A stretch of DNA of 53,167 nt, taken from NCBI GenBank assembly GCA_019163135.1, contig JAFLKR010000032.1, forward strand, positions 1-53,167, written 5' to 3'. A program made the translations under genes and the position numbers. Of this stretch, positions 1,975 to 19,548 are shown piece after piece. The stretch's first letter is position 1. Each line of letters begins with the position of its first letter. Below the pieces are notes generated by a model that was given only the letters and a program-made list of their open reading frames with translations, had not been told where the DNA came from and did no database searches. The stretch is from Desulfobulbaceae bacterium (lineage in GTDB: Bacteria; Desulfobacterota; Desulfobulbia; Desulfobulbales; Desulfobulbaceae).

Positions 1975-2267
1975 TTCACAATTATCTCTTCCTCAGTATC
2001 ATCCTTTTTTGTCTAGGGATAGTCGGTGTAATCTCCCGGCGAAATGTCTTTACAGTATTTATGTCCATTGAATTGATGTTGAATGCTGCTAATCTCGCTT
2101 TTATTGCATTCTCCCGCGTTCATCAAAACATGGATGGACATGTTCTCGCGATGATGGTTATGGCGGTAGCTGCTGCAGAAGCTGCACTGGCTCTTGCCGT
2201 TGTGATATTACTGCACAAACATAAAAGCAAGCTTGATACTAATGTATTCAGCCTGCTGAAAGGGTGA
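1971..2267 (+). CDS. nuoK: NADH-quinone oxidoreductase subunit K
   Basis: Three-helix membrane subunit related to MrpC. The 98-residue length is typical. The two conserved helix glutamates of the proton path are visible in [11 protein letters not shown] and in [13 protein letters not shown]. The start overlaps the nuoJ stop by 4 bases, so the two are probably translated together. It is followed after 4 bases by nuoL. Confidence 0.95.
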
Positions 2268-2271
2268 TTCC

Positions 2272-4185
2272 ATGGGACAAAGTGTAAATTATCTAGGTCT
2301 GATACCGCTTTTCCCATTACTGGGCTCGGTACTGATCGGTCTTATTCATGTTTTTGCCGGTAAAAAATTTAGGATTTCTGAGAAATTTTACGGCATTCTT
2401 GCCTGCGTAGGACCGGTACTCTCATTTATCTTAGCGCTCAAAACCTTTGTCGCTCTTAAGGCCTTGGCTCCTGAGTCTCGCTTTTTGTGTCATAAGGCCT
2501 TTACTTGGTTCAGTGTCGGTGAGTTGCATATCGACATGGGATTTTTAGCTGATCCGCTCAGTTGTCTCATGTTGTTGTTTGTCACGTTTATTGGTTCCCT
2601 GATCCATATATATTCCATAGGATACATGGGCGGAGACAAAAATTACGGTAAATTTTTCTCCTACATGAATCTCTTTCTTGGCGCCATGCTGGTGTTAGTC
2701 CTTGGCGACAGCCCGGTTGTCATGTTTGTCGGCTGGGAAGGAGTCGGACTCTGTTCGTATCTGCTCATTAGTTTTTATAGCGAAGACCGCTCTAACGTCC
2801 TTGCAGGCAATAAAGCCTTTATCGTCAACAGGATCGGCGACCTTGGCTTTGTTCTGGGCATGGCCTTTCTTTTCTGGGGTATTGGTGCGAGTGGGTTTGA
2901 TTTCCTTTCGCTGAAAGCTCATTCCGGCAATCTTACCCCGGCGATTGCGCTCACTGTCTGTCTATTGTTATTTGTCGGCGCCACCGGTAAATCGGCCCAG
3001 ATTCCCCTCTATGTCTGGTTACCGGACGCTATGGCTGGCCCTACACCGGTTTCCGCACTCATCCATGCCGCAACGATGGTCACCGCCGGTGTCTACATGG
3101 TCGCTCGATTCAGCTTTATCTATGCAAACGTTGAATTGGCGGGCAACATTATTGCCTGGGTCGGCATCCTTACGGCTCTTCTGGCTGCCATTTTCGGCAT
3201 GTTCCAGGATGACATCAAAAAAGTTCTGGCCTATTCGACCGTTAGTCAGTTGGGGTACATGTTTGCTGGTGTCGGAGTGGCGGCATATTCTGCCGGTATT
3301 TTCCATGTTTTTACCCATGCTTTTTTTAAAGCCTTGCTCTTTCTTGGTGCTGGATCCGTAATCTATGCCTTGCATCACCAACAGAACATCTGGAAGATGG
3401 GCGGGCTGAAATCGAAGATGCCTAAAACCTATTTTACCATGGTGATCGGCGCACTGGCCCTTTCCGGTTGCCCACCTTTCTCCGGATTCTTCAGCAAAGA
3501 CGAAATTCTCTATAGCGCTTTGGCGACTGGGCATTACGGCATTTGGATGGTGGGTGTCTTGGTAGCTGGCATGACTGCTTACTACACATTCAGGATGATC
3601 TTCGTGGTCTTCCACGGCACGCCTCGCGATCAGCATGCCTTTGATCATGCGAAGGAATCGCCTGCTGTTATGACCGTGCCTCTTATTATTCTGGCGGTAG
3701 GTGCTTTGTTTGCTGGATTTTTGAATCTGCCTGCAATCTTTGGTGGCAGTCAAATGGTCACCCATTGGCTGGCTCCCAGCCTGACTGAACACCATCCGCA
3801 TGCAAGTCTTTTTATAGAAATTATAGCTATCGGCGCAAGTGTGGCCGCTTTTGTCATCGGCATTAAGATCGCCTACACCAAGTTTGGACAAGGCGCTCCT
3901 GCACCGGAATTCAAAGGCTTCGCTGAATTTGCTTATCACAAATTCTATGTCGATGAATTGTATCATGCCATTATTGTTCAACCCTATAAAGCTATCGGTT
4001 CGATTATTTGGAAAACCCTCGAACCAAATGTTACCGATAGTCCGGTCAAAGCCGCATCAAAACTCTATATGGCCATTGGAACAGCCTTCAAGGTTTTCCA
4101 GGTGGGCTATGTCAGGATTTATGCAATATATATGATCGTAGGGCTGAGTCTGATGAGCCTGTTCCTCTCTCAATCGTTGAATTAG
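2272..4185 (+). CDS. nuoL: NADH-quinone oxidoreductase subunit L (antiporter-like)
   Basis: Largest and most distal proton-pumping subunit of complex I, related to Mrp antiporter subunits. The 637-residue protein carries the Proton_antipo_N region (GWEGVGLCSYLLI, about residues 155-170) and the Proton_antipo_M core (WLPDAMAGPTPVSALIHAAT, about residues 250-270), followed by the long C-terminal segment expected for NuoL's lateral helix. About fourteen or more hydrophobic segments are evident. Charged helix residues (Glu in GWEG, Lys in GATGKSAQ and in the FFSKDEILY region) match the family. It is tightly packed between nuoK and nuoM. Confidence 0.96.
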   Translation: MGQSVNYLGLIPLFPLLGSVLIGLIHVFAGKKFRISEKFYGILACVGPVLSFILALKTFVALKALAPESRFLCHKAFTWFSVGELHIDMGFLADPLSCLMLLFVTFIGSLIHIYSIGYMGGDKNYGKFFSYMNLFLGAMLVLVLGDSPVVMFVGWEGVGLCSYLLISFYSEDRSNVLAGNKAFIVNRIGDLGFVLGMAFLFWGIGASGFDFLSLKAHSGNLTPAIALTVCLLLFVGATGKSAQIPLYVWLPDAMAGPTPVSALIHAATMVTAGVYMVARFSFIYANVELAGNIIAWVGILTALLAAIFGMFQDDIKKVLAYSTVSQLGYMFAGVGVAAYSAGIFHVFTHAFFKALLFLGAGSVIYALHHQQNIWKMGGLKSKMPKTYFTMVIGALALSGCPPFSGFFSKDEILYSALATGHYGIWMVGVLVAGMTAYYTFRMIFVVFHGTPRDQHAFDHAKESPAVMTVPLIILAVGALFAGFLNLPAIFGGSQMVTHWLAPSLTEHHPHASLFIEIIAIGASVAAFVIGIKIAYTKFGQGAPAPEFKGFAEFAYHKFYVDELYHAIIVQPYKAIGSIIWKTLEPNVTDSPVKAASKLYMAIGTAFKVFQVGYVRIYAIYMIVGLSLMSLFLSQSLN

Positions 4186-7377: not shown

Positions 7378-7996
7378 TCATGTCATAAAACCAGGCCACT
7401 TGCCTTGAAAGAGCAATCTCAAGGCTTCGGACGCCGTCAACCCCTGTTTTCTGCAGGTCGATATATAACTGCGTATGCGGCAGGATGTTTTGGCGCCGTC
7501 CATTGAACGGAAACACCCCACCACTTTCTGCTGCACCTTGATCATACGCAGATCATTTTCAGCCTGGTTGTTCGAGAAAGGGACAACAGGGTCATCCAGG
7601 AATCTCAGGACATCAGCCTCAAAATTCTGTATTCGTTCCAGGCGATTTCTGGATTTTGATCGGGCCACCCGGCCGCGTTTCCCTTCTCTTTTGCTCTGTT
7701 CCGGTGCCGGGCATTCGTTCTCGGCTTCTCGTAACAGGTTTCGGTACTGCGTTCTGTACTGCTCCGCCATGGTCGCATCAAGAACCGCCGGCGTCATGGA
7801 CCGCCCGATTAGCCTTTCTGAGAAATTTATTCATCTGCTGTGCCCACTGCTGATCGTCTTGTTCCCAAGCCCGTTCCAATTCTCGAAGGTGATGGGCATT
7901 GCACAGCGCATGCGCTCGGCCGTATTGGAAATACGGTTTCCAGTGGTCGTGGCAAAGGATTCCTCGAAAAATCGGTAGAATCCCTATCGTGTTATC
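7378..7996 (-). pseudogene. IS66-family transposase remnant, 5'-truncated and frameshifted
   Basis: Two reading frames together give the C-terminal half of an IS66 (DDE_Tnp_IS66) transposase. The upstream part (about 7996-7803) reads GILPIFRGILCHDHWKPYF...NAHHLRELERAWEQ, which includes a catalytic-type Asp. It then hits a stop, and the protein continues in another frame from about 7797 with FSNNQAENDLRMIKVQQKV, which contains the catalytic Glu, and ends at 7378. The N-terminal half with the first Asp is missing and no accessory IS66 orfs are visible. The remnant starts within about 10 bases of the hdrA stop codon. A GTAACCATTCAGC stretch near 7347 may be part of the element's end. Not functional. 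Confidence 0.85.
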
Positions 7997-8005
7997 GAAT
8001 GAACA

Positions 8006-10435
8006 TCAGAGTTTACTGAGTGTATTCTGGGTTTCGGCGATCTCCTCTGCGGTGACGCTTTGGCGCAGTTTCTCCATCCGTTTCATGGTTTCGGCGAATT
8101 GGACACCCTCGGCGGCGCTGATCCATTCCAACTGCAGTCGTTCCGGCCGCAGGCCGATCTTCTCCATCTTTTTATGGATGCGAGCAACCCGTTTTTCAGT
8201 CCAATGGTTGGCGTCGATGTAATGGCAGTCACCAATATGGCAGCCGCTCACCAGAACCACCGGCGCCCCCAGCCGGAATCCCTCCCAGATGAACTTCTCA
8301 TCGACCCGACCCGAGCACATCACTCGGATAAGGTGGACATTGGGCGGATACTGCAGTCTTGAGACCCCTGCGTAATCGGCGCCGGCATAGGAGCACCAGT
8401 TGCAGGCAAACGCCAGAATTTTCGACTCTGGGGCAATGTCCAACATGGAATCAACCTGCCCCAGAATCTGGGCATCGGTGAAGTGATTCATGCGGATCGC
8501 ATCGAAGCGGCACTCGGCCGAACAGGTGCCACAGCCAGCGCAAGCCGCAGAATTAACCACTGCCGGCTTCTTGTTCTTCACATCCACGGTGATGGCATTG
8601 TAAGGGCAGACCTCGGCGCATTTGCCGCAGGACTTGCATTTTTCGGTGATGATCACCGAAGTGATCGGTTCGGTGCTTATCTCCCCTTTATGCATCAACC
8701 GGATGGCCCGCATGGCGGCGGCCGAGGCCTGAGTGACGCTCTCCTTGATATCCTTGGGGCCCTCGGCGCACCCGGCGTAAAAAATACCGCGGGTGGCCGC
8801 ATCCACCGGCTGCAGTTTGGGATGGGCCTCCAGATAAAAGCCATCCGAGGTCAGCTGTAATCCCATGATCTCCTGGAGCCGCTGGGTGCTCGGCGCCGGT
8901 TGCATGCCCTGAGCCAGGACCAGCATGTCGAGTTCATGGAACTCTAGCTTGCCAGTGGCTGAATTCTCCACCGCGACTCTTAGCGATTTTTGGTCCAGTT
9001 CTTCCACTGATCCGGGTAAGCCGCGGATGTACTGGGCACCCATGCGGCGGCTCCGGGTGTACAGGTCCTCGAAGCCTTTGCCAAAGGCGCGGATGTCAAT
9101 ATAAAATACCTTGACCTCAACATCGGGGTAGTGCTCCTTGATGATGAAGGTCGATTTGACCGTGTTCATGCAGCAGACATTGGAGCAATGGTGACTTCCC
9201 TTTTTGGCAGAACGCGAGCCCACGCACTGGATGAACCCAACCGATTTGGGGTGGTTGCGGTCCGAAGGACGGATGAGTGAGCCCTTGGTGGGACCACTGG
9301 CGTTAACCATCCGTTCGAACTCGAGGCTGGTGAGGACATTCTCAAAACGGGTGTAGCCGTACTCATCCATTTCGGTCGGGTCATAAGGCGCAAGTCCCGT
9401 GGCGACTATGATGGTCCCGACTTCCTCGATAATCTCCTCATCGGACATGTGGAAATTAATGCAGCCTTTGGCGCAGACCTCGACGCATTTCGAGCAGACC
9501 GCCGGATTATGGCCTAGGCACTCCTTGGCATTGATCAGATAGGAGGACGGTACAGCCTGAGGGAAGGGACTGTAGATCGCCTTGCGCGAACCCATCCCCA
9601 TATTGAATTCATCGGGCCGGACTACCGGGCAGACTTTGGCGCACTCGCCGCAGGCGGTGCAACTGGTTTCATCGACATACCGGGCCTTCTTGATAATCTT
9701 AACTTTAAAATTACCCACATAGCCTTTAACATCGACCACTTCACTTAAGCTCAACAACTTTATCCGTGGATGTCGACCGACATCCGTCATCTTAGGACCT
9801 AAGATTCAAATCGAACAGTCCATGGTGGGAAAAGTCTTGTCCAACTGGGCCATGATTCCACCAACGGAGGGGCTTTTTTCTACCAGGGTGACGTCGTAGC
9901 CGCTATCGGCCAGATCGAGCGCCGCTTGGATGCCGGCAATACCTCCGCCGATGACCAGGGTCTTTTGGGTCAGCGGCAGGATGTCCTCAATCAGGGGTTC
10001 GAGGAGGCGGACTCGGGAGATCGACATGTTGACCAGGGTCTCTGCCTTGAGGGTGGCGTTTTCACGGTCATTCATGTGCACCCAACTGCACTGCTCGCGC
10101 AGATTGGCCATATCCAGCATGTAGGGATTGAGGCCCACAGAATCGATCATCTTTTTGAAGGTTGCCTCATGGAGGCGCGGCGAGCAGGAAGCGATCACAA
10201 CCCGGTCGAGTCCGTTATCTATGATATCCTGTTTGATCTGCTGCTGTCCGGGTTCGGAGCAGGCATAGACGATATCCTTCGAGACCACGACGCCATCAAC
10301 GTTTGCTGCGCCCTCGGCGACCCGATGGCAGTCCACGGTTTGGGCGATGTTGAGCCCGCAGTGGCAGACATACACCCCGATGCGGGGATCCTGATCACCG
10401 TGAGCGGCTTGTTTTGCAAGGGTTGGTTTTGACAT
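8006..10435 (-). CDS. hdrA: HdrA-MvhD fusion, probable selenoprotein (in-frame UGA = Sec at residue 210)
   Basis: FAD and iron-sulfur subunit of heterodisulfide-reductase-type complexes, the site of flavin-based electron bifurcation. I join two apparent open frames (10435-9806 and 9790-8006) because they are in the same frame and separated only by UGA at 9808-9806. Around it the protein reads TFPTMDCSI-U-ILGPKM. HdrA proteins have Cys at this place (CSxC), and Sec replaces it in methanogens and some Desulfobacterota. Order: N-terminal HdrA domain (VCHCG, about 23), FAD motif GGGIAGIQAALDLADSGY (about 162), Sec 210, cluster motifs at about 259 and 303, two ferredoxin motifs at about 597 and 630, then a C-terminal MvhD domain (CNWCSYAGAD about 678, CHIGDCHY about 730). 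Total 809 residues. The start has a GAGGAG site. Last gene of the kor-hdr operon. Confidence 0.88.
9768..9785 (-). promoter_or_regulatory. Candidate bacterial SECIS hairpin
   Basis: In the mRNA sense, a perfect 7-bp stem (GGATGTC / GACATCC) with loop GGUC begins 20 nt after the UGA at 9808-9806, inside the coding sequence. Bacterial SECIS elements are short hairpins with a GU-containing apical loop, roughly 16-37 nt behind the UGA, which bind SelB. Spacing and loop both fit. No folding program was run. Confidence 0.75.
9789..9805 (-). other. Second perfect hairpin immediately after the UGA
   Basis: The 17 bases directly after the UGA form a 7-bp inverted repeat (ATCTTAG / CTAAGAT) around GTC. 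It sits 3 bases before the SECIS candidate, making a tandem pair. It also encloses part of the ATG at 9790-9788 that would otherwise look like a start codon for a separate downstream gene. Confidence 0.55.
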
Positions 10436-10566: not shown

Positions 10567-12177
10567 TCATTCCCAGCGGATGGTCTGGGCGATCACACTG
10601 GTCAGATCCATCATCTCAATGCTGAGTTGCTCGCGCCGAAAGGGATCTTCCATGGCACACTTGAGATGAATCTGGCATTTTGGGCAGGCGGTGATCAACA
10701 GGTCGCTGCCGGTGGCCTGGACCTGCTCGAGTCGTTTAACCTGCATGGCCTTGCTATAGGAATCACACCCGATCCAGGCGCAATTGCCGCAGCAGATGGC
10801 GGATGCGCCAGACTCCTTCATCTCTTCGAACTTAAGGGGTTTGAGTCGTTTCAGCAGTTTGCGGGGCAGGTCGGCCCGGTTCTCCAGGCGGCCGAGGCGG
10901 CAGGAGTCCTGGAAGGTGATGTTGCGTTCAAGCGGTTTAAAACCCACAGCCCCTTTGTCAATCTGCTCTTCGAGGAAATCGTAGAGGTGAACCACCTTAA
11001 AGGTGGTTTCGATTCCCTGGGCCGGGTAGGTGGTGTGCAAGGTCATGAAGCATTCGGGGCAGGAGGTAATCACGGTTTCGATGCCGAGCGCCTGGATTTG
11101 CTCGACGTTCAGGCGGGCGATGCGTTCGAAATTTTGCTTATCTCCAGACCAGAGGAGGTCGTGGCCGCAGCACCGCTCGTCGCTGAGCAGACGGGGGGCG
11201 ACATCGAAGAAGTTGAGGAGACGCAGGCTGTCGATTAAGATTCTGCTGGTATCCACGTCGCTGTGCTTGCCGAAAAAGATGTCGTAATAAGGGGCGCAAC
11301 CGCCGAAGAACAAGGTTTTGCTCTCGGGATCGATGCGGATATCCGCTGGCAGGTCGGTCCATCGTTTGGGTCTAATTGCCGGCGAGGTCATCGAGCGCAT
11401 CAGTGAGTGGAAAAAACCGCCGTGGGTCTCTTGGCCGGGCAGTTCGGTTTGCCGGTAGAAATTGCGCAGATCTTTAATGAACTCGGGGAAATTGACCGCT
11501 GAGGGACAACGGGCGTAACAGAGGCCGCAGGTCAGGCAGGACCAGACATTTTCGTGGACGCCGGGCGAATGCAGGCCGCCGGCAATGACCGAGGCGGCGA
11601 TGGCGCGCGGCGAAAAGGGTTTGCCGATCAGGGCCAGGGGGCAGGCGGAGGAGCATTTGCCGCAGTCCTGGCAGGCATGAATGTCATGAATGGCGATCAG
11701 TTGCTGTAGTTCCTGTTTGCGGGTGGTTACGGTCGGCGGCGGAATAAGTGGGGCGACCTCGATGCCGGTAGGACCGAGTTCACGGATATTGGCACTGAAG
11801 GTCTGGAGGAAACTGAGCATCTCTTCGGACTGTTCGGGGAGAAAGCCGGCAAAACGCAACCGTTCGCTACCCAGACCCATGATATCAAGAATACGCCCTA
11901 AGTCCTGAGTGTTGCGCTGGGAGGTGGCGGTACCACTGCCGTAGCGGCAGGTTCCAGGTTCACAGCCGACCAGAGCGACCCCGTCGGCACCCTTGGCAAA
12001 GGCCTTGAGCAACAGGGCCCGGTCGATGCGGCCGGCACAGGGGGTGCGCACCATATGAATCTCGTCTGGAATTGGCCGTCGCTGGTCCTGGAGGGTCTGG
12101 AAGGCGGCATGCGCACCCCAGTTGCACAGGAAAAGGAGTATTTTCTGGTTGTTATCGTTCTGGGTTGGGTTATTCAT
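10567..12177 (-). CDS. MvhD-HdrC-HdrB fusion protein (536 residues)
   Basis: Predicted electron-transfer subunit of the Hdr-type complex. Three modules run in order. First is an MvhD-like [2Fe-2S] domain (FLCNWGAH about residue 16, TPCAGRID, GCEPGTCRYGSG). Second is an HdrC-like pair of [4Fe-4S] motifs (CQDCGKCSSACP about 166, CLTCGLCYARCP about 211). Third is an HdrB/HdrD-like part with two CCG regions (CCGHD about 337 with CPEC about 372; CCGNCAWIGC about 466 with CPKC about 496), which in HdrB bind non-cubane clusters that reduce disulfides. The first CCG copy has fewer cysteines. The ATG at 12177 is preferred (AGGGAAAG site, 8-base overlap with the upstream gene); a frame extending to 12327 lies inside the neighbour. 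The true acceptor is unknown. Confidence 0.85.
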   Translation of the reverse strand: MNNPTQNDNNQKILLFLCNWGAHAAFQTLQDQRRPIPDEIHMVRTPCAGRIDRALLLKAFAKGADGVALVGCEPGTCRYGSGTATSQRNTQDLGRILDIMGLGSERLRFAGFLPEQSEEMLSFLQTFSANIRELGPTGIEVAPLIPPPTVTTRKQELQQLIAIHDIHACQDCGKCSSACPLALIGKPFSPRAIAASVIAGGLHSPGVHENVWSCLTCGLCYARCPSAVNFPEFIKDLRNFYRQTELPGQETHGGFFHSLMRSMTSPAIRPKRWTDLPADIRIDPESKTLFFGGCAPYYDIFFGKHSDVDTSRILIDSLRLLNFFDVAPRLLSDERCCGHDLLWSGDKQNFERIARLNVEQIQALGIETVITSCPECFMTLHTTYPAQGIETTFKVVHLYDFLEEQIDKGAVGFKPLERNITFQDSCRLGRLENRADLPRKLLKRLKPLKFEEMKESGASAICCGNCAWIGCDSYSKAMQVKRLEQVQATGSDLLITACPKCQIHLKCAMEDPFRREQLSIEMMDLTSVIAQTIRWE

Positions 12178-15100
12178 GGACACTTTCCCTGGTGAGTAGT
12201 TCTTCGAGCGCCTGCTCGAGATAGACCCGGCTACGGAATGGGCTGTCGGCGGCGCTGGTCGGGCAGACCGAGATGCAGTTGCCGCAGCCTTTGCAGAGGC
12301 CTTCGTCGATATGGGCGTGCCAGCCATTGACCCCGTTGGGTTGTAAGGTCACCGCGTGATACAGGCAGACATTGGCGCAGCGCCCGCAGCCTCGGCAGAG
12401 TTTCTCGTCGATGGCTGCGGTGAAGCCCTTGGACTGACGGGGCCCGCGCGGCATGGCCGCTGCCACCATCACCGCCGCCGCTGTCCCTTTTTTGAGCTTG
12501 GAGACATTGATGGCGGGGGGTTCGGCCAGAAAGAGGCCGGGGACCGAGGTGGCACAGGGATAGGCAAAGGGGATGCCGGAAACACCCCGCTGCTGCACTA
12601 AGGATTCAACGGTGCAACTCGGCAGCCCTTCCTGGTGGGTATAGGCAATCCGCCGTCGGGCCTTTTCCCCGAGGATGACCGTGCCGGCCCGCAGGACTTG
12701 CTGACGATCGTCGGATTCGATCAGGATTTGGAAGTCACCGAGGGTGCCGCTGATGCCCTTGACGTTCCAGTCGGGAAAGTTGTGGATGTTGGCATGGTCG
12801 ATCTGGTCTTTCAGCGGTTGCTCGGCGGTGCCGAAGCGAAAAACTTCGTGGTCCGAATCGGCCAGGGTTAGAGCGCTGCTGATGGTTGCCTGGGAATTAC
12901 CGATGACGGCGGCGGCAAAATTGTAATTGCGATCTACCGCATGCATGGGCTGCAGGTTCAGGGTCCGTTTGATCGACCGTTGCAGCAGGCCCTTGAATCG
13001 CTGCAGGGCGAGATCGGGGTTGTCGACGACCAGGCGGAGAATCTCGCCGCGCAGGTTGCAGGTCTCCACCATGGAGCGGCTGATACCGGTACCGTGGAAG
13101 AGGGCGCTTTTCAAACGGCTGCGCTGGTCGGTGCAGGAACTGCAGACAAAGTTGAGCGGGCAGCAGACGCAGGAGGCCAACACAATCCGGGTAATCGCTT
13201 TTTCGCGCACCGCCCGGACTATGGCCGACGAACCTTCCTTGACGCAGGCTGCGGGCATGGCTTCGATATGGACTATGGTCGGATCGGCGGCGGCCAGTTG
13301 TTCCAGGGTGTCGGTCATGGCATCGAGCCAGCCGAAGCTGTCGTTGCAGCGGCAGACAAAAACGCCGATGCGGATCTCCGGTGAAAGACCGGCGTCCGGG
13401 ATGGAGAAGGCCAAGCCGTGACCTTTGGTTTTCCGGGAAGCCCCGCCCAGCAGCAGCATGGCCCGGGCCGCGGCGTCAAAACCGCGGACAATCATGTCGT
13501 TGACATCCGGCCTGGCGGTATTTGGCCCGTAGGCCCGGATGATGTCGTCGCCCTTGATGTTGGGGGCAATGGTCGGGTCGGCAACGATCACAGCTCCGCA
13601 CTGCTCGACAATTTCCTCTTTTTCCTGAAAATGATCGATTGCTTTGAGCGCCCCGCAGGCAGCCACGCACTGCAGGCATTCTGAGCAGACCCCGCATTGC
13701 AGGCAACGACTGGCCTCGGTTGCCATCTGCAACGGGTTGAGGCCGAGCGCCACTTCTTGGAAATCGATTTTGCGCAGGTCGGCCCGACGTTCAGGCATTG
13801 CGACCCGCTGTTGCTTGGGCAGGTCTTCGGGAATGCAGCGGAAATCCTTGGTCAGCGGGCGGGAGGCCGTATTATGGTTGGCGACGATTCCGGTCAGGTC
13901 GTTATGAATGGTTTGGGCGACCGCCCGGCCTGAGGCCATGGCCTTGACCACCGAAGACGGTCCGGACACCGCGTCGCCGGCTGCGTATATCCGCAGGTGC
14001 GAGGTACGCATCTGGGCGTCGGTCTCGAGAAAACCGCGCTCGCTGACCGCCAATCGGCCGCCGAAACTCTTGCTGGTGAAACCGCCGACCTGACCAATGG
14101 CGACAAAGGCCCGGTCAAAGGCCAGGGAAAAAGGCTGTTGCCCTTCGACCACCACTGGCCAGGCGACCCCTCGCTGATCAGGGAGGCCGGGTTGGGTGCG
14201 CAAACACTCAAGTGACTTGAAATTTTTGTTTTCGTTTTCACCCTGAAAGGCAATCACCTGGGTGGCATCGATGATGGTGACGCCTTCTTCAAGTGCCTCG
14301 CGGACCTCATCCGGGTCGGCCGGTATTTGATTGGCGGCAAACCAGGAGACAATGCTCACCTTGGCACCCATGCGGACCAAGGTCCGGGCCAGGTCAAAGG
14401 CGGCGTTGCCGTCGCCGACCACGGCCACCCGCTCGGGCAGGTGGGTGAGGTTTTCCCAATGACGGCGGGCCAGAAAGGCGAGGCAGCCTTCAACTCCGTC
14501 GAGGTCTTCACCAGCCACACCCATCCTGCGGTCGTGCCAGGTGCCAGTGCCGAGGATCACCCCGTGGTATTCCGCAGTCATGCGGTCAAGATCCGCGGCC
14601 AGATCCACCTTATGGTCGGTGATAAAGGTGACGCCCATCCGTTCGATCAGGCCGATCTCCCGGTCGAGAATGACGGGTGGCAATCGGTGCATGCCAATGC
14701 CGTAGCGGAGCAGGCCGCCGAGGGCCCGTTCCTTCTCAAAGACCGTGACCCCGTACCCTTTTCTGGCCAGATCGGCCGCTGCCGCAATCCCGGCAGGGCC
14801 GGAACCGATGACCGCTATTTTTTCCGGTCTGGTCGGCTCGCACTTCGCCGTCATCGCCTCGCCGGCGGCCTTTTGACGGGCGGCATCAGCCCCCTCGTAA
14901 TCGGCCAGGAATCGCTTAATGGCTCGGATCGAAACCGGATCGTCGACGCTGCCGCGTCGGCAGGCGTCTTCACAGGGGTGGGTGCAGACCCGGCCGCAGA
15001 TTCCCGGCAGGACGTTGTCCCGCCGGATCAGGGCCAGGGCCTCATCAAATTTGCCTTGCGCCGCCAAGGCGATGTACCCTTGGGCATTGACGCCCAGCGG

Positions 15101-15574
15101 GCAGCTTTCCTGGCAAAGCGGCTGTTTGCGTTTATCGATATAGGGGCGGCCGGGCAGGCTGGTACGGGCATAGAAGCGCAGGGCTTTGCCAGTATCCGGG
15201 GTCTCCACCGGGCAGACGGCCGCACACTTGCCGCACAGGACGCAGCGGTCGGGATCGATAAAGGTCTGTTCCTGATCGATGCGTACACTGAACCCCTGGG
15301 GGGTGTGCTTGATCGAGGTGATCCGGGCCGGCAGCAGGGTGCGGATGGCACTGTTGCGCATGATCCGGATCAGTCCAGGGCGGTGGGCGTGGTTGAAACT
15401 CAAGCCCGAGGGCAGCCGGTACTCGTCGCTCGCGAGTTTGCGGTCGAGATCCGGGTCGCCATCGATCAGGGTGACCGGGATGCCCAGTTCCCCCAATTTG
15501 TTGGCAGCGGCGATTCCTTCCGGGGTGGCTCCGGCAATGATCACCCGGTATAAACGCTCTTTTTGTCGTGTCAT
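12170..15574 (-). CDS. GltD/HdrA hybrid iron-sulfur flavoprotein (1134 residues)
   Basis: Multi-domain oxidoreductase not matching one standard family. Visible order: a degenerate HdrA-like nucleotide-binding start; a ferredoxin motif CVLCGKCAAVCP (about 111); a glutamate-synthase small-subunit type Fe-S domain (CQESCPLGV about 154, CGRVCTHPCEDACRRG about 192); FAD motif VIGSGPAGIAAAADLARKGY (about 255); NAD(P)-binding motif VAVVGDGNAAFDLA (about 385); a cysteine cluster CLQCGVCSECLQC (about 625); an HdrA N-terminal-like domain (VFVCRCND about 738, CVCCPLNFVCSSC) and two closing ferredoxin motifs (about 1055 and 1091). GltD-type domains use NAD(P)H, so it may be the pyridine-nucleotide entry to the Hdr complex. 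It overlaps korC by 4 bases (ATGA), implying coupling. Function inferred. Confidence 0.82.
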   Translation of the reverse strand: MTRQKERLYRVIIAGATPEGIAAANKLGELGIPVTLIDGDPDLDRKLASDEYRLPSGLSFNHAHRPGLIRIMRNSAIRTLLPARITSIKHTPQGFSVRIDQEQTFIDPDRCVLCGKCAAVCPVETPDTGKALRFYARTSLPGRPYIDKRKQPLCQESCPLGVNAQGYIALAAQGKFDEALALIRRDNVLPGICGRVCTHPCEDACRRGSVDDPVSIRAIKRFLADYEGADAARQKAAGEAMTAKCEPTRPEKIAVIGSGPAGIAAAADLARKGYGVTVFEKERALGGLLRYGIGMHRLPPVILDREIGLIERMGVTFITDHKVDLAADLDRMTAEYHGVILGTGTWHDRRMGVAGEDLDGVEGCLAFLARRHWENLTHLPERVAVVGDGNAAFDLARTLVRMGAKVSIVSWFAANQIPADPDEVREALEEGVTIIDATQVIAFQGENENKNFKSLECLRTQPGLPDQRGVAWPVVVEGQQPFSLAFDRAFVAIGQVGGFTSKSFGGRLAVSERGFLETDAQMRTSHLRIYAAGDAVSGPSSVVKAMASGRAVAQTIHNDLTGIVANHNTASRPLTKDFRCIPEDLPKQQRVAMPERRADLRKIDFQEVALGLNPLQMATEASRCLQCGVCSECLQCVAACGALKAIDHFQEKEEIVEQCGAVIVADPTIAPNIKGDDIIRAYGPNTARPDVNDMIVRGFDAAARAMLLLGGASRKTKGHGLAFSIPDAGLSPEIRIGVFVCRCNDSFGWLDAMTDTLEQLAAADPTIVHIEAMPAACVKEGSSAIVRAVREKAITRIVLASCVCCPLNFVCSSCTDQRSRLKSALFHGTGISRSMVETCNLRGEILRLVVDNPDLALQRFKGLLQRSIKRTLNLQPMHAVDRNYNFAAAVIGNSQATISSALTLADSDHEVFRFGTAEQPLKDQIDHANIHNFPDWNVKGISGTLGDFQILIESDDRQQVLRAGTVILGEKARRRIAYTHQEGLPSCTVESLVQQRGVSGIPFAYPCATSVPGLFLAEPPAINVSKLKKGTAAAVMVAAAMPRGPRQSKGFTAAIDEKLCRGCGRCANVCLYHAVTLQPNGVNGWHAHIDEGLCKGCGNCISVCPTSAADSPFRSRVYLEQALEELLTRESVHE

Positions 15575-16173
15575 GGCACCAACGCTCCTGTCTGGCCCGC
15601 AGCCCGTTTCTCCCGGCCCTTGAGGGTTGAAAGGCCGTAGTCAAATCCTTTGTTGAAGGCCTCGATGTTCCGCTCCTCGGTTCCTTTAGGTACCGACTGC
15701 ACGATGGTGGCATGAGCCGCTTCACTGGACACCGCCTCGGTGATGGCGGTGCAAAAGCCGAGCATGATGATGTTGGCCATCATTTTGTTGCCCAGGTTCT
15801 CGGCCATCCGGGTGGCGGGAATGGCAAAGTGGGCGCAGGGAACCTTTTCCGGATTGACCAGATCCTGATCAACCAGGAGAACGGCGTCGGGCGCCAGGGC
15901 TGCAGCGAATTTGTCGTAACCGGCTTGGGACATGGCCACCAGAATTTGCGGATTGTTGACATAGGGGTAATGGATGGGCACATCCGAGATGATCACTTGG
16001 GCATTACAGGCACCGCCGCGGGACTCCGGGCCGTAGGCCTGCACCAGGGTGCTTTCCTTGTGGTCGCCGAGCGAGGCCGACATCCCGAGGATGCGTCCGG
16101 CCATAATGATGCCCTGGCCGCCGAAGCCGGTGACAATGATCTCCGTCTGGTGGTTTTTTTCTTGCGTGCTCAT
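15571..16173 (-). CDS. korC: 2-oxoacid:ferredoxin oxidoreductase gamma subunit (KorC-type)
   Basis: Gamma subunit of a thiamine-diphosphate 2-oxoacid:ferredoxin oxidoreductase, probably for 2-oxoglutarate (or a related branched 2-oxoacid). The 200-residue protein opens with the family hallmark TGFGGQGIIMAGRILG and contains YGPESRGGACNAQVIIS. Together with korD, korA and korB it forms a four-subunit enzyme that makes CO2, an acyl-CoA and reduced ferredoxin, or runs in reverse. It is separated from korB by 167 bases but overlaps the following flavoprotein gene by 4 bases, tying the enzyme to the Hdr modules. Confidence 0.9.
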   Translation of the reverse strand: MSTQEKNHQTEIIVTGFGGQGIIMAGRILGMSASLGDHKESTLVQAYGPESRGGACNAQVIISDVPIHYPYVNNPQILVAMSQAGYDKFAAALAPDAVLLVDQDLVNPEKVPCAHFAIPATRMAENLGNKMMANIIMLGFCTAITEAVSSEAAHATIVQSVPKGTEERNIEAFNKGFDYGLSTLKGREKRAAGQTGALVP

Positions 16174-16340: not shown

Positions 16341-17189
16341 TCAGTCGTCGCTGCAGGGGCGGTGGAGTTCGCTGTAGCGATCATCGCAGGTGGAACGGTC
16401 GATGTCGATGAACTTGCCGATGACTACGCCTTTCTCGAAATCGATATCCGCCCGGGCAGGGTCGGCCCCATTCTTGATGATGGTCCGGTCCTGGTAGAGC
16501 TTGAGGGTATCGAGGGGTTTTTCCTTGTTGCGGCGGCCGTAATTGATCGGGCAGGGGGAGAGCACCTCGATGAACGAAAAACCTTTGCGGACAATGGCCT
16601 CGTTGATGGCAGTGGTCAGGTCTCGGGTATGGAGAATGGTCCAGCGGGCCACATAGGAAGCGCCGGCGGCATAGGCGAGCAGGGGCAGATTAAAGGGCGC
16701 ATCCGGGTTGCCGAGCGGGGTGGTGGTGGATTTGGCCTTGTTGGGGGTAGTGGCCGCACATTGGCCGCCGGTCATGCCGTAGGTTAGGTTGTTGACGCAG
16801 ATCACGGTCAAATCCATGTTGCGCCGGGCGGCATGGATAAAGTGGTTGCCGCCGATGGCGAACAGGTCGCCGTCTCCGGAAAACACGATCACCTTCAACT
16901 CCGGTTTAGCCATTTTGATGCCGCTGGCAAAGGGGATGGCTCGGCCGTGGGTGGTATGGAAGCTGTCGAGCTTGATATAGCCCGCAGCCCGGGCCGAGCA
17001 GCCGATGCCCGAAACCATGGTGAACTGGTTGTAGGGAATCCCCGTGGCCTTGATTGCGCTGAGGCAGGAGGAGAAAACTGTACCTATGCCGCAGCCCGGA
17101 CACCAGATGTGGGGGATACGTTCGGTCCGGATCAGATCGTCCAGCGGGTGTTCCGGTTGTTTGGCCAACTTTTTCGGATTGGTGGTCAT
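16341..17189 (-). CDS. korB: 2-oxoacid:ferredoxin oxidoreductase beta subunit (KorB-type)
   Basis: Thiamine-diphosphate-binding subunit. Visible marks are HIWCPGCGIG near residue 29 (cluster/TPP region), GIGCSARAAGYIKLDSFHTTHGRA (written in part), and the TPP-magnesium motif GDGDLFAIGGNHFIHAARRN with NN following. The 282-residue length is normal for KorB. Substrate cannot be decided from motifs alone; the four-gene D-A-B-C order and similarity in style favour 2-oxoglutarate. Gaps on both sides (113 bases to korA, 167 to korC) are longer than elsewhere in this operon. Confidence 0.92.
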   Translation of the reverse strand: MTTNPKKLAKQPEHPLDDLIRTERIPHIWCPGCGIGTVFSSCLSAIKATGIPYNQFTMVSGIGCSARAAGYIKLDSFHTTHGRAIPFASGIKMAKPELKVIVFSGDGDLFAIGGNHFIHAARRNMDLTVICVNNLTYGMTGGQCAATTPNKAKSTTTPLGNPDAPFNLPLLAYAAGASYVARWTILHTRDLTTAINEAIVRKGFSFIEVLSPCPINYGRRNKEKPLDTLKLYQDRTIIKNGADPARADIDFEKGVVIGKFIDIDRSTCDDRYSELHRPCSDD

Positions 17190-17302: not shown

Positions 17303-18457
17303 TTAAAGCGCGCCAAATTTTTCCTGGATGCGTTCAATCACCTTGTCCGGGTGGATGATTTTGCCGCCGGCATGACCGACCAGATAGGCCGGGGCCTTGC
17401 CGCCGCTGCACCGCTCGACCTCGTAATGGATCTGGCCGAGGTTGATTTCCACGGTAATGAACCCTTTGACCCGACCGGCGATATCGCGGATCAGTTCTTC
17501 CGGGAAGGGCCAGACCGTCACCAGTCGCAGCAGACCGGCTTTGTAGCCCATTTTTCTGGCCTGATCAACGGCGGCCAAGCCGGTGCGCACCGAGATGCCG
17601 TAGCTGACGATGACAATGTCGGCATCGTCCATCAGATAATTTTCTATTTCGATGATATCTTCGAGATTATTACGAATTTTTCCTTTAATTCGCGCCATCA
17701 TTGTTTCCTGGGCCTCGACGGTCATGGCCGGATAGCCGCGTTCATCGTGGGTCAGGCCGGTAACATGGATGTTATAGCCCTCGCCGATGGCTGGCATGGG
17801 AGCCACCCCGTTGGGGCCGGGTTCGTAGAGCCGGAAGCGGTCCTTGCGGCCGGTGGGCTTGGGGCGTGAAATCAGGTGGATCTGGTCGGCCTCGGGAATG
17901 ACCACCTTTTCACTCATATGACCGACGATCTCATCAGCCATGATCAGCACTGGCACCCGGTATTTTTCGCTGAGGTTAAAGGCGCGGATAGTCTGGTAGA
18001 AACAGTCCTGCGGGGACGAGGGGGCCAGTGCAATCAGTTCGTAGTCTCCGTGCGAGCCCCAGCGGGCCTGCATCATGTCGCCTTGGCCAGTCTGGGTAGG
18101 CAGGCCGGTGGACGGCCCGGTCCGCTGAACATTGACGATCACGCAGGGGGTTTCGGTGCAGACCGCCAGACCGAGGTTTTCCATCATCAGACTGAAGCCG
18201 GGGCCCGAAGTGGCGGTCATGCTTTTGACCCCGGTCCAGGCGGCGCCGAGAATGGAGGCGATTGCGGCGATTTCATCCTCCATCTGGATAAAGGTGCCGC
18301 CGATATCGGGCAACCGTTCGGCCATGTGCTCGGCGATCTCGGTGGCCGGGGTGATCGGGTAGGCGCCAAAAAACAGGCATCCCGCCGCAATTGCACCTTC
18401 GGCGCAGGCGACATCGCCGGTGATATAGTGGTCGCCTGTCAAGACTGCTGGTTTCAT
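17303..18457 (-). CDS. korA: 2-oxoacid:ferredoxin oxidoreductase alpha subunit (KorA-type)
   Basis: Pyrimidine-binding subunit of the 2-oxoacid:ferredoxin oxidoreductase. The start shows GNVA-type sequence TGDVACAEGAIAAGC, then FFGAYPITPATEIAEHMAE, and TATSGPGFSLMMENLGLA, all typical of the alpha subunit. It has 384 residues. The ATG has an AAGGA site upstream and lies 27 bases after korD. It pairs with KorB to form the active site. The substrate is inferred to be 2-oxoglutarate. Confidence 0.92.
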   Translation of the reverse strand: MKPAVLTGDHYITGDVACAEGAIAAGCLFFGAYPITPATEIAEHMAERLPDIGGTFIQMEDEIAAIASILGAAWTGVKSMTATSGPGFSLMMENLGLAVCTETPCVIVNVQRTGPSTGLPTQTGQGDMMQARWGSHGDYELIALAPSSPQDCFYQTIRAFNLSEKYRVPVLIMADEIVGHMSEKVVIPEADQIHLISRPKPTGRKDRFRLYEPGPNGVAPMPAIGEGYNIHVTGLTHDERGYPAMTVEAQETMMARIKGKIRNNLEDIIEIENYLMDDADIVIVSYGISVRTGLAAVDQARKMGYKAGLLRLVTVWPFPEELIRDIAGRVKGFITVEINLGQIHYEVERCSGGKAPAYLVGHAGGKIIHPDKVIERIQEKFGAL

Positions 18458-18484: not shown

Positions 18485-18760
18485 TTATTTCTGGACAGCT
18501 GCTGGCGTAATTTCAACCGAATAGATAGCGAATTCGGGGCAGATGATTTCGCAGTAATGGCAGTTGACGCATTCGTCGAGCTTGGTCACAACCGGTGGAT
18601 GGTAGCCTTTGCGGTTGAATTTGTCGGAGAACTTAAGAATGTCTTTGGGGCAGAATTCGATGCAGTAGCCACACCCTTTGCATCGATCGTCGATGATGCA
18701 GACCACCCCTTTGATAACCTGTATCTCCTGCGCATCCAGAGGTACTCGCCAAAATGCCAT
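18485..18760 (-). CDS. korD: 2-oxoacid:ferredoxin oxidoreductase delta subunit, 2[4Fe-4S] ferredoxin
   Basis: Small ferredoxin subunit that takes electrons from the thiamine site. Two motifs are visible, CKGCGYCIEFCP and CVNCHYCEIICP, separated by about 26 residues. The ATG at 18760 gives a 91-residue protein starting MAFWRVP with an AGG-type site upstream; the frame stays open to 18895, but that would add an unconserved-looking leader. It is the first gene of the kor-hdr operon, so the operon promoter should lie upstream of it (18761-19100). Confidence 0.88.
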   Translation of the reverse strand: MAFWRVPLDAQEIQVIKGVVCIIDDRCKGCGYCIEFCPKDILKFSDKFNRKGYHPPVVTKLDECVNCHYCEIICPEFAIYSVEITPAAVQK

Positions 18761-19548
18761 ATTGCTTACCTGTGATGGGGTAAAAGTTTGGTTTGAATGA
18801 AGGAGGAAACCTGGAAAAAATTGGCTAACAACAGACGAAAGGGCTGTTGGTGGGCTCGCCTCGCACCCGATTGAATAAACTGAATAATCAAGCAAGTGTC
18901 AAGTCTCAAGCGGGATGTAACGTAAAAAAAACGAGACGCTGGGCGGTTTTTTCCACCGGTGTCTCGATTTCGTCCTCGAGGTCTCTGTTCGTTTCCAGCA
19001 ATCTGTTTGGGGTTTATGAGAGGGAGCCGGCATCGGGGAAACGGTCTCTGGGAACCTAAAATTTTTAAAGAAGTTAGGTTTTTTCGTAGCGTACCAATGC
19101 AGTGACTGTCTAGGAGTCTGTCTGGTTATTTCCTATCCTCAACAGATGGGGATCTAGGTTTTCCGCCCTCCTTTCGCTGTACCCCTCCCCTGAAAGGCTC
19201 TCCGCCTGATTTGATGCTGACGGGTGTTTAATCTTGGATCCAGGTACTTTTGAAATCATCTCCAGGAGCTTGCCCATATTCTCAATCCGCGAAAGAATGT
19301 CTCGTTTTGAGACGGCCACTCGTTTCGTCATCTTTGCAAGCGATCAATAAAAGGTCTTTTTTGGATAATTCTGCCGCTGGCACCCTGTTTGTATAAGGAT
19401 ATCTTGGTTGGTACAGGGCGTAGAACTTTTTGGTATCGGATGAAAGGGCTTTACGTATTATTAATAACTGCAAAGAACCTCAATCCAACAAGCGCAACCA
19501 TGCGTTAGGGGTACTCTGTTGCAGAACTGATAGACAAGGAGAAAATCC
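18761..19548. other. Intergenic region between the divergent kor-hdr operon and the chemoreceptor gene
   Basis: Must hold promoters for both directions. A frame on the minus strand at 19331-19110 (73 residues, starting MTKRVAVSKRDILSRIENMG) has no clear ribosome site and no family I recognise; it could be a small protein or chance. An imperfect inverted repeat (GAGAC...GTCTC, about 18932-18967) is present. No tRNA or riboswitch was recognised. Confidence 0.5.
19378..19393 (+). promoter_or_regulatory. Partial sigma-54-like site upstream of the chemoreceptor
   Basis: TGGCAC-N5-TTGTA, with the -24 box perfect but the -12 box reading GT where GC is expected. It lies about 155 bases before the chemoreceptor start. 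Weak candidate only. Confidence 0.25.

Follow-up and report, generated by a model that had tools for sequence, protein, structure and literature searches.

An HdrA2-MvhD Fusion Gene with an In-Frame UGA Codon, Probably Read as Selenocysteine, in a Desulfobulbus-like Bacterium

Results

Two Open Reading Frames Probably Form One Selenoprotein Gene

The locus at positions 8006–10435 (minus strand) of the window, that is, of the whole 53,167-nucleotide stretch of Desulfobulbaceae DNA that we analyzed, very probably encodes one selenoprotein, an HdrA2-MvhD fusion of 809 residues in which the UGA at codon 210 would be read as selenocysteine (Sec). Judging from the sequence, we put the probability of this reading at about 0.93, a figure that does not extend to the reaction of the complex to which the protein may belong. 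The strongest evidence for it, absent from the initial annotation, is a SECIS hairpin downstream of the UGA.

Read with translation table 11, the locus yields two ORFs, 10435–9806 (209 aa) and 9790–8006 (594 aa), both on the minus strand, so that automatic annotation splits the gene, as had been anticipated. Both ORFs belong to a single frame, whose sole internal TGA is codon 210 (9808–9806, minus strand). Five sense codons separate it from the ATG at 9790, and the terminal stop of the frame is itself a TGA (8008–8006). The joined protein, searched with C put in for U, matches the NCBIfam HdrA2 model (NF040770) over nearly its full length (residues 18–798) at 1186 bits, above the cut-off of 1100. 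It contains an FAD/pyridine nucleotide domain and ends in an MvhD domain (Pfam FlpD, PF02662; residues 673–789, E 2.5e-46) encoded at 8069–8419 (minus strand). The initial annotation had proposed a single in-phase HdrA-MvhD with the UGA at the second Cys of a CSxC motif, and both proposals hold: in its context DCSI-U-ILGPKM, U210 aligns with the Cys of homologues, including Cys197 of the solved HdrA 5odc_A (counted from the alignment, which is gap-free up to there).

Among 584 listed stretches, 575 encoded a relative, and the best 80 named loci were kept. Codon 210 is TGA in 78 of these 80 and TGT in two, a second copy in Desulfobulbus rhabdoformis (L112) and a locus of Desulfogranum japonicum (L114). 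The nearest named relatives among the 80, D. elongatus (90%) and D. rhabdoformis (88%), are isolates with TGA, as are Desulfogranum marinum and Desulfoprunum benzoelyticum. By its nearest named relatives, the host is placed in Desulfobulbus or close to it. In the genus of the window, 15 of 23 genomes carry the TGA form, the window's own included. A TGA shared by 78 of the 80 named loci, isolates among them, excludes chance or a sequencing error in place of TGC or TGT. The ATG at 9790 encodes the M of ILGPKM. As the same Met is kept in Cys-type relatives that have no stop, this ATG does not indicate a second gene; homologues do not point to a separate downstream start, a check proposed earlier, and the codon is an ordinary one.

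A Conserved Hairpin Follows the UGA Codon

In bacteria, a SECIS is a hairpin a short distance downstream of the UGA whose apical loop contains a G. At 9785–9768 (minus strand), the predicted RNA contains the stem-loop GGAUGUC-GGUC-GACAUCC, with 7 bp and the GGUC loop at 9778–9775. The hairpin starts at the 21st nucleotide after the UGA and its loop at the 28th, which corresponds to a UGA-to-loop distance of 27 nt. Over 79 Sec sequences, synonymous conservation peaks at codons 216–224, whose excess of 0.364 ranks first of 744 nine-codon windows (s.d. 0.048).

To count stem pairs, we took the 196 sequences covering this place, removed 56 with less than 55% identity and then 28 duplicates from the remaining 140; among the removed rows are four remote Sec-HdrA (L211, L213, L214, and L217). 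All seven pairs are present in 88 of the 98 distinct Sec regions and six in the other 10; 97 of the regions have a GGUC loop. At the sixth pair, 50 regions have U-A, 38 C-G, and 10 U-G, and none has a mispair. None of 10,000 shuffles reached 98 of 98 paired (mean 78.7), a figure that is not a probability because the 98 sequences are related. This pair couples codon 219, which differs between Val and Ala (GTC/GCC), to codon 221, where the choice between two Arg codons (CGA/CGG) is otherwise synonymous, and the combination of GCC with CGA is found in none of the 79 Sec sequences. The 14 distinct Cys regions form three pairs in seven cases, four in four, five in two, and six in one (L112), and only one of them has a GGUC loop. 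As L112 keeps six of the seven pairs, Sec and Cys forms cannot be told apart completely by pairing alone.

Folded as a single sequence, the region around the UGA gives a z of −1.24, and 23 of 200 shuffles were as good. No Rfam family matched the window at gathering scores, and a search around the UGA at E up to 10 returned a chance hit only; the assignment of the SECIS consequently rests on pairing and conservation. On this basis, hairpin 9785–9768 is a predicted SECIS of the bacterial type, with strong comparative evidence and a weak single fold.

A further hairpin, hairpin I (AUCUUAG-GUC-CUAAGAU; 9805–9789, minus strand), lies directly 3′ of the UGA. It is perfect in the gene of the window and contains a GGUC of its own. 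Among 14 sequences of the genus, codons 212–216 show an excess of 0.474, first of 776 five-codon windows, and the best window outside codons 209–224 reaches 0.233; within the genus, the synonymous constraint on hairpin I thus equals that on the SECIS. Over all 79 Sec sequences, codons 212–215 show no synonymous excess. Outside the genus, 90 distinct Sec regions form four of the seven pairs in 17 cases, five in 40, six in 30, and seven in three, partly because Gly-Pro codons can pair mutually. As such pairing is common there anyway, it is the within-genus constraint alone that speaks for hairpin I.

The Genome Encodes the Selenocysteine Machinery

The search for selA, selB, selC, and selD suggested by the initial annotation found all four in the genome (98.95% complete), each above its curated cut-off: a canonical tRNA-Sec (69.3 bits vs. 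47; ARAGORN was also run), SelB (360.8 vs. 242.25), SelA (616.9 vs. 267.9), and SelD (375.5 vs. 125). In-frame TGA codons occur in Sec-like contexts inside selD (KAAGU) and the formate dehydrogenase gene fdhA (RVUHSPSVA), which we take to be known Sec motifs; the formate dehydrogenase matches are all under the family cut-off. Downstream of the canonical tRNA-Sec gene (L001:1501–1598) are integrase-like ORFs (1995–3093, recognized by eye), as if the gene were an integration site.

The same genome has a second tRNA-Sec-like gene (L002:1501–1597, corresponding to contig C18:35337–35433), with G1-C72, U73, which is the Cys discriminator, and a UCA anticodon. A selC* tRNACys is defined by a tRNA-Sec-like body, U73, and a GCA or UCA anticodon (PMC7609411), a description that the L002 tRNA fits by its sequence. 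The further criterion is an 8/4 acceptor branch with a bulged A51a. The consensus of 11 aligned copies, one per genome, folds 8/4, and the copy of the window's genome has a C-A mismatch at the eighth acceptor pair. By DNA search, selC*-like tRNAs were matched in 11 of the 23 genus genomes and in none of 32 other relatives. A twelfth, weaker match (L157, the second in genome G300) has UCA and a discriminator other than T and was left out of the alignment.

A cysteine synthase (recognized by eye) fused to a second cysteinyl-tRNA synthetase (774 aa) is also encoded in the window's genome (L281:583–2907, contig C2), as is an ordinary CysRS (contig C6). The CysM-CysRS fusion has an essentially full-length match in 17 of the 23 genus genomes. 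Considered as a partner of the selC*-like tRNA, it finds no support in co-occurrence (17 vs. 11 of 23 genomes), and our literature search returned no link between such a fusion and selC.

Alternative Readings of the UGA Codon

A spurious TGA, due to a pseudogene or an assembly error, might be suspected in a draft genome of 217 contigs with a fragment of an IS66 transposase gene just downstream of hdrA. This reading is already refuted by the TGA counts, as the codon is shared by 78 of the best 80 named loci, cultured isolates included, and by 14 other genomes of the genus (some perhaps identical with named loci). In addition, the frame is otherwise intact across its 809 codons, and we give such an error practically no chance. 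That the UGA terminates and translation restarts at ATG 9790 to give two polypeptides is also very improbable. This ATG is only five codons past the UGA and has a weak AGG 7 nt before it, but the cut would fall inside the FAD domain, the Met is that of the stop-free Cys relatives, and neither the synonymous constraint nor the covariation of the hairpin would have a role in such a model.

A different possibility is that UGA-210 is decoded in part as Cys by the selC*-like tRNA, for instance under selenium limitation, which would give a Sec/Cys mixture. The tRNA is present in the window's genome, its 11 aligned copies all combine U73 with UCA and differ by compensatory pair changes, and Cys forms of HdrA2-MvhD do exist at position 210. 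According to a review, some selC* tRNACys carry UCA and some CysRS variants charge such tRNAs (PMC7609411). Sec-HdrA is found in 10 of the 11 genus genomes with the tRNA and in 5 of the 12 without it, counts that are not corrected for kinship or incomplete genomes. However, these five, among 15 Sec-HdrA genomes of the genus, gave no match to the tRNA in the DNA search, so that it is not needed for Sec-HdrA; two of the five are less than 85% complete. The canonical tRNA-Sec and SelA are present, no second SelB scored above the cut-off in the genome, the eighth acceptor pair of its own tRNA copy is mismatched, and L157 lacks T at the discriminator. We therefore regard partial decoding as Cys as unlikely. 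Still more speculative is a tunable UGA-210 in Desulfobulbus and its nearest kin, in which SelB would bring either Sec-tRNASec or a Cys-charged mimic and hairpin I would help to set the ratio of Sec, Cys, and stop by selenium supply; we hold this to be distinctly improbable. Nothing that we found speaks against reading UGA-210 as Sec, the interpretation that we retain.

The Gene Belongs to a Conserved 2-Oxoacid Oxidoreductase Operon

The genes upstream of hdrA2-mvhD are all on the minus strand. They encode, in order, a ferredoxin-like, KorD-like ORF of uncertain start (18485–18895, Cys motifs recognized by eye), the alpha (KorA, 17303–18457), beta (KorB, 16341–17189), and gamma (KorC, 15571–16173) subunits of a 2-oxoacid:acceptor oxidoreductase, an HdrL-like protein (12170–15574), and an MvhD-HdrC-HdrB protein (10567–12327). 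The Kor subunits and the HdrL-like protein were assigned by domain and family searches; in the latter, a GltD-type NAD(P)H/FAD oxidoreductase precedes a part that resembles a degenerate HdrA. A domain search of the last ORF found FlpD, an HdrC-type ferredoxin, and HdrB-type CCG domains. Its likely start is at 12177 (Met51), and many relatives align only from about residues 59–62 onward. HdrB, HdrC, and MvhD partners are thus encoded together, by the domains of this ORF and the fused MvhD. Just downstream of hdrA lies the IS66 transposase fragment (7378–7797, minus strand).

This organization is conserved among the best 80 of the 575 relatives. With identity limits of 50% for MvhD-HdrCB and 45% for the HdrL-like protein (L113, at 39%, was counted as a miss), the two genes were found upstream in 73 of 78 and 63 of 66 loci with enough upstream sequence, respectively. 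Of the 51 loci whose sequence extends upstream by 5,900 bases or more, 48 encode KorC there. The link to a 2-oxoacid oxidoreductase operon drawn in the initial annotation is therefore real.

Proposed Role of Sec210

What the sequence itself establishes is the single frame, a covarying SECIS, a full set of Sec machinery genes, and a UGA kept at a position of Cys. We propose that SelB carrying Sec-tRNASec binds the hairpin starting at the 21st nucleotide after the UGA, and that the ribosome would thereby read UGA-210 as Sec. Domains and gene order suggest a cytoplasmic complex in which HdrA2-MvhD, as the core for flavin-based electron transfer, would associate with two neighbors, the MvhD-HdrCB protein and the NAD(P)H oxidoreductase of HdrL type. 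Within this complex, electrons would be exchanged among the oxidation of 2-oxoacids (KorABC/ferredoxin), NAD(P)H, and a disulfide at HdrB.

Among 192 aligned rows, 24 cysteines are kept in all or nearly all (Cys314 is kept in 34 of 43 remote rows); they are the presumed ligands of six [4Fe-4S] clusters. Neither Cys nor Sec is present at position 210 in 13 remote rows of the 192, and all 13 also lack Cys207, while they keep Cys24, Cys26, Cys59, Cys84, and the other 20 presumed ligands. As Cys207 is lost together with residue 210 while the cluster ligands stay, we propose, more tentatively than the composition of the complex, that, within the FAD domain, Cys207 and Sec210 may act as a redox pair instead of ligating an iron-sulfur cluster. 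Against this, 7 of 43 remote rows with Cys210 (L174–L180) lack Cys207; the two residues are not always kept together, which weakens the idea of a strict pair. A structural paper of 2025 states that electrons reach the HdrA flavin from an MvhD-type cluster “by an unknown mechanism” (PMC12350162). A role of Cys207/Sec210 as a relay from MvhD finds no support in their distribution: the alignment extends to the MvhD domain in 12 of the 13 pair-less rows, and all 12 keep the five cysteines of this domain.

Sec and Cys Forms of HdrA

We built a FastTree phylogeny of 170 HdrA proteins (118 Sec and 52 Cys), after removal of short and duplicate rows and of those in which position 210 is neither Sec nor Cys. 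On this quick, unrooted tree, the state changes between Sec and Cys three times. Four Cys rows (L112, L114, L158, and L235) are nested in a large Sec clade and look like reversions to Cys, the direction being deduced from nesting in an unrooted tree. L112 keeps a SECIS relic with six of seven pairs, and both L112 and L114 lie outside the kor/HdrL-like/mvhD-hdrCB gene context. The remote Sec rows L211, L213, L214, and L217 (46–48% identity) are placed elsewhere on the tree and have a different stem (GGATGAC-GGA-GTCATCC in L211), which suggests that Sec at position 210 probably arose twice, independently in the remote group. L214 and L217 each contain one further in-frame stop.

Sec and Cys forms of HdrA2-MvhD coexist in D. 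rhabdoformis DSM 8777 (L040 and L112) and in genome G297 (L225 and L235). The window's own genome encodes a Cys-type HdrA paralogue (DCSMC, contig C61).

Discussion

Sec-HdrA in sulfate-reducing bacteria is already known; what we describe here is a Desulfobulbus-like genome with the RNA signal intact. A search of non-subscription papers on Sec-HdrA, on the operon, and on Desulfobulbus selenoproteins returned none that describes this Desulfobulbus locus. Desulfococcus multivorans is a marine host of another order. Its hdrA1 (dmul_C02770/80) was annotated in 2016 with a UGA and a SECIS, as here, and adjoins mvhD1 and a pyridine nucleotide-disulphide oxidoreductase gene (PMC5109826). One genome has, at 0.320 Mb, a match of 74% that carries the TGA, and this is the place given for hdrA1 in that paper (PMC5109826); by this correspondence, D. 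multivorans hdrA1 is probably the orthologue of our locus.

The precedent for Sec-HdrA in Desulfobacterota invoked by the initial annotation is in print for Deltaproteobacteria since at least 2006, with seven Sec-HdrA reported in Syntrophobacter fumaroxidans, four in Syntrophus aciditrophicus, and one in Desulfotalea psychrophila (Zhang et al. 2006, PMC1794560). Our locus shares with these the HdrA family, Sec, and bacterial decoding. The operons described there are of the type glpC-hdrA-frhD-frhG-frhA (PMC1794560), whereas our hdrA is fused to mvhD and is preceded by korABC, by a gene of HdrL type, and by an mvhD-hdrCB fusion. Desulfobacterium autotrophicum HRM2 is reported to have Sec-containing HdrA (HdrA1 and HdrA2) and HdrL beside mvhD (PMC2702500). 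An HdrL-type gene is also a neighbor here; in contrast, HdrA and MvhD are encoded by separate genes in HRM2 according to that report and are fused at our locus.

Archaeal HdrA-MvhD fusions, described in Methanosarcina and A. fulgidus (PMC2702500), share the domain order of our protein, which passes the HdrA2 cut-off of NF040770. The predicted SECIS lies inside the gene; in the archaea covered by one study, SECIS elements were looked for, and located, in the 3′ untranslated region (PMC11227280). The fusion of Sec-HdrA to MvhD in a 2-oxoacid oxidoreductase operon had initially been regarded as less familiar. This stands only in part, given the archaeal fusions (PMC2702500), the Sec-HdrA of Deltaproteobacteria (PMC1794560), and the probable orthologue in D. 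multivorans (PMC5109826). Less ordinary are the selC*-like tRNA in about half of the genus and the extra constrained hairpin after the UGA. If UGA-210 were indeed tunable, the proportions of Sec, Cys, and stop in a protein central to electron transfer would follow the selenium supply.

When such loci are read with table 11, the selenoprotein is missed, and so is the dependence of a central redox complex on selenium; for archaeal HdrA, a survey of 2025 describes the same loss (PMC12054007). That the Sec sits in a CxxU motif, away from the residues presumed to bind the clusters, suggests a chemical role open to direct testing. The conserved operon offers a clear object for such tests, as it contains a Sec-HdrA for which natural Cys versions exist, one of which, L112, shares its genome with a Sec version.
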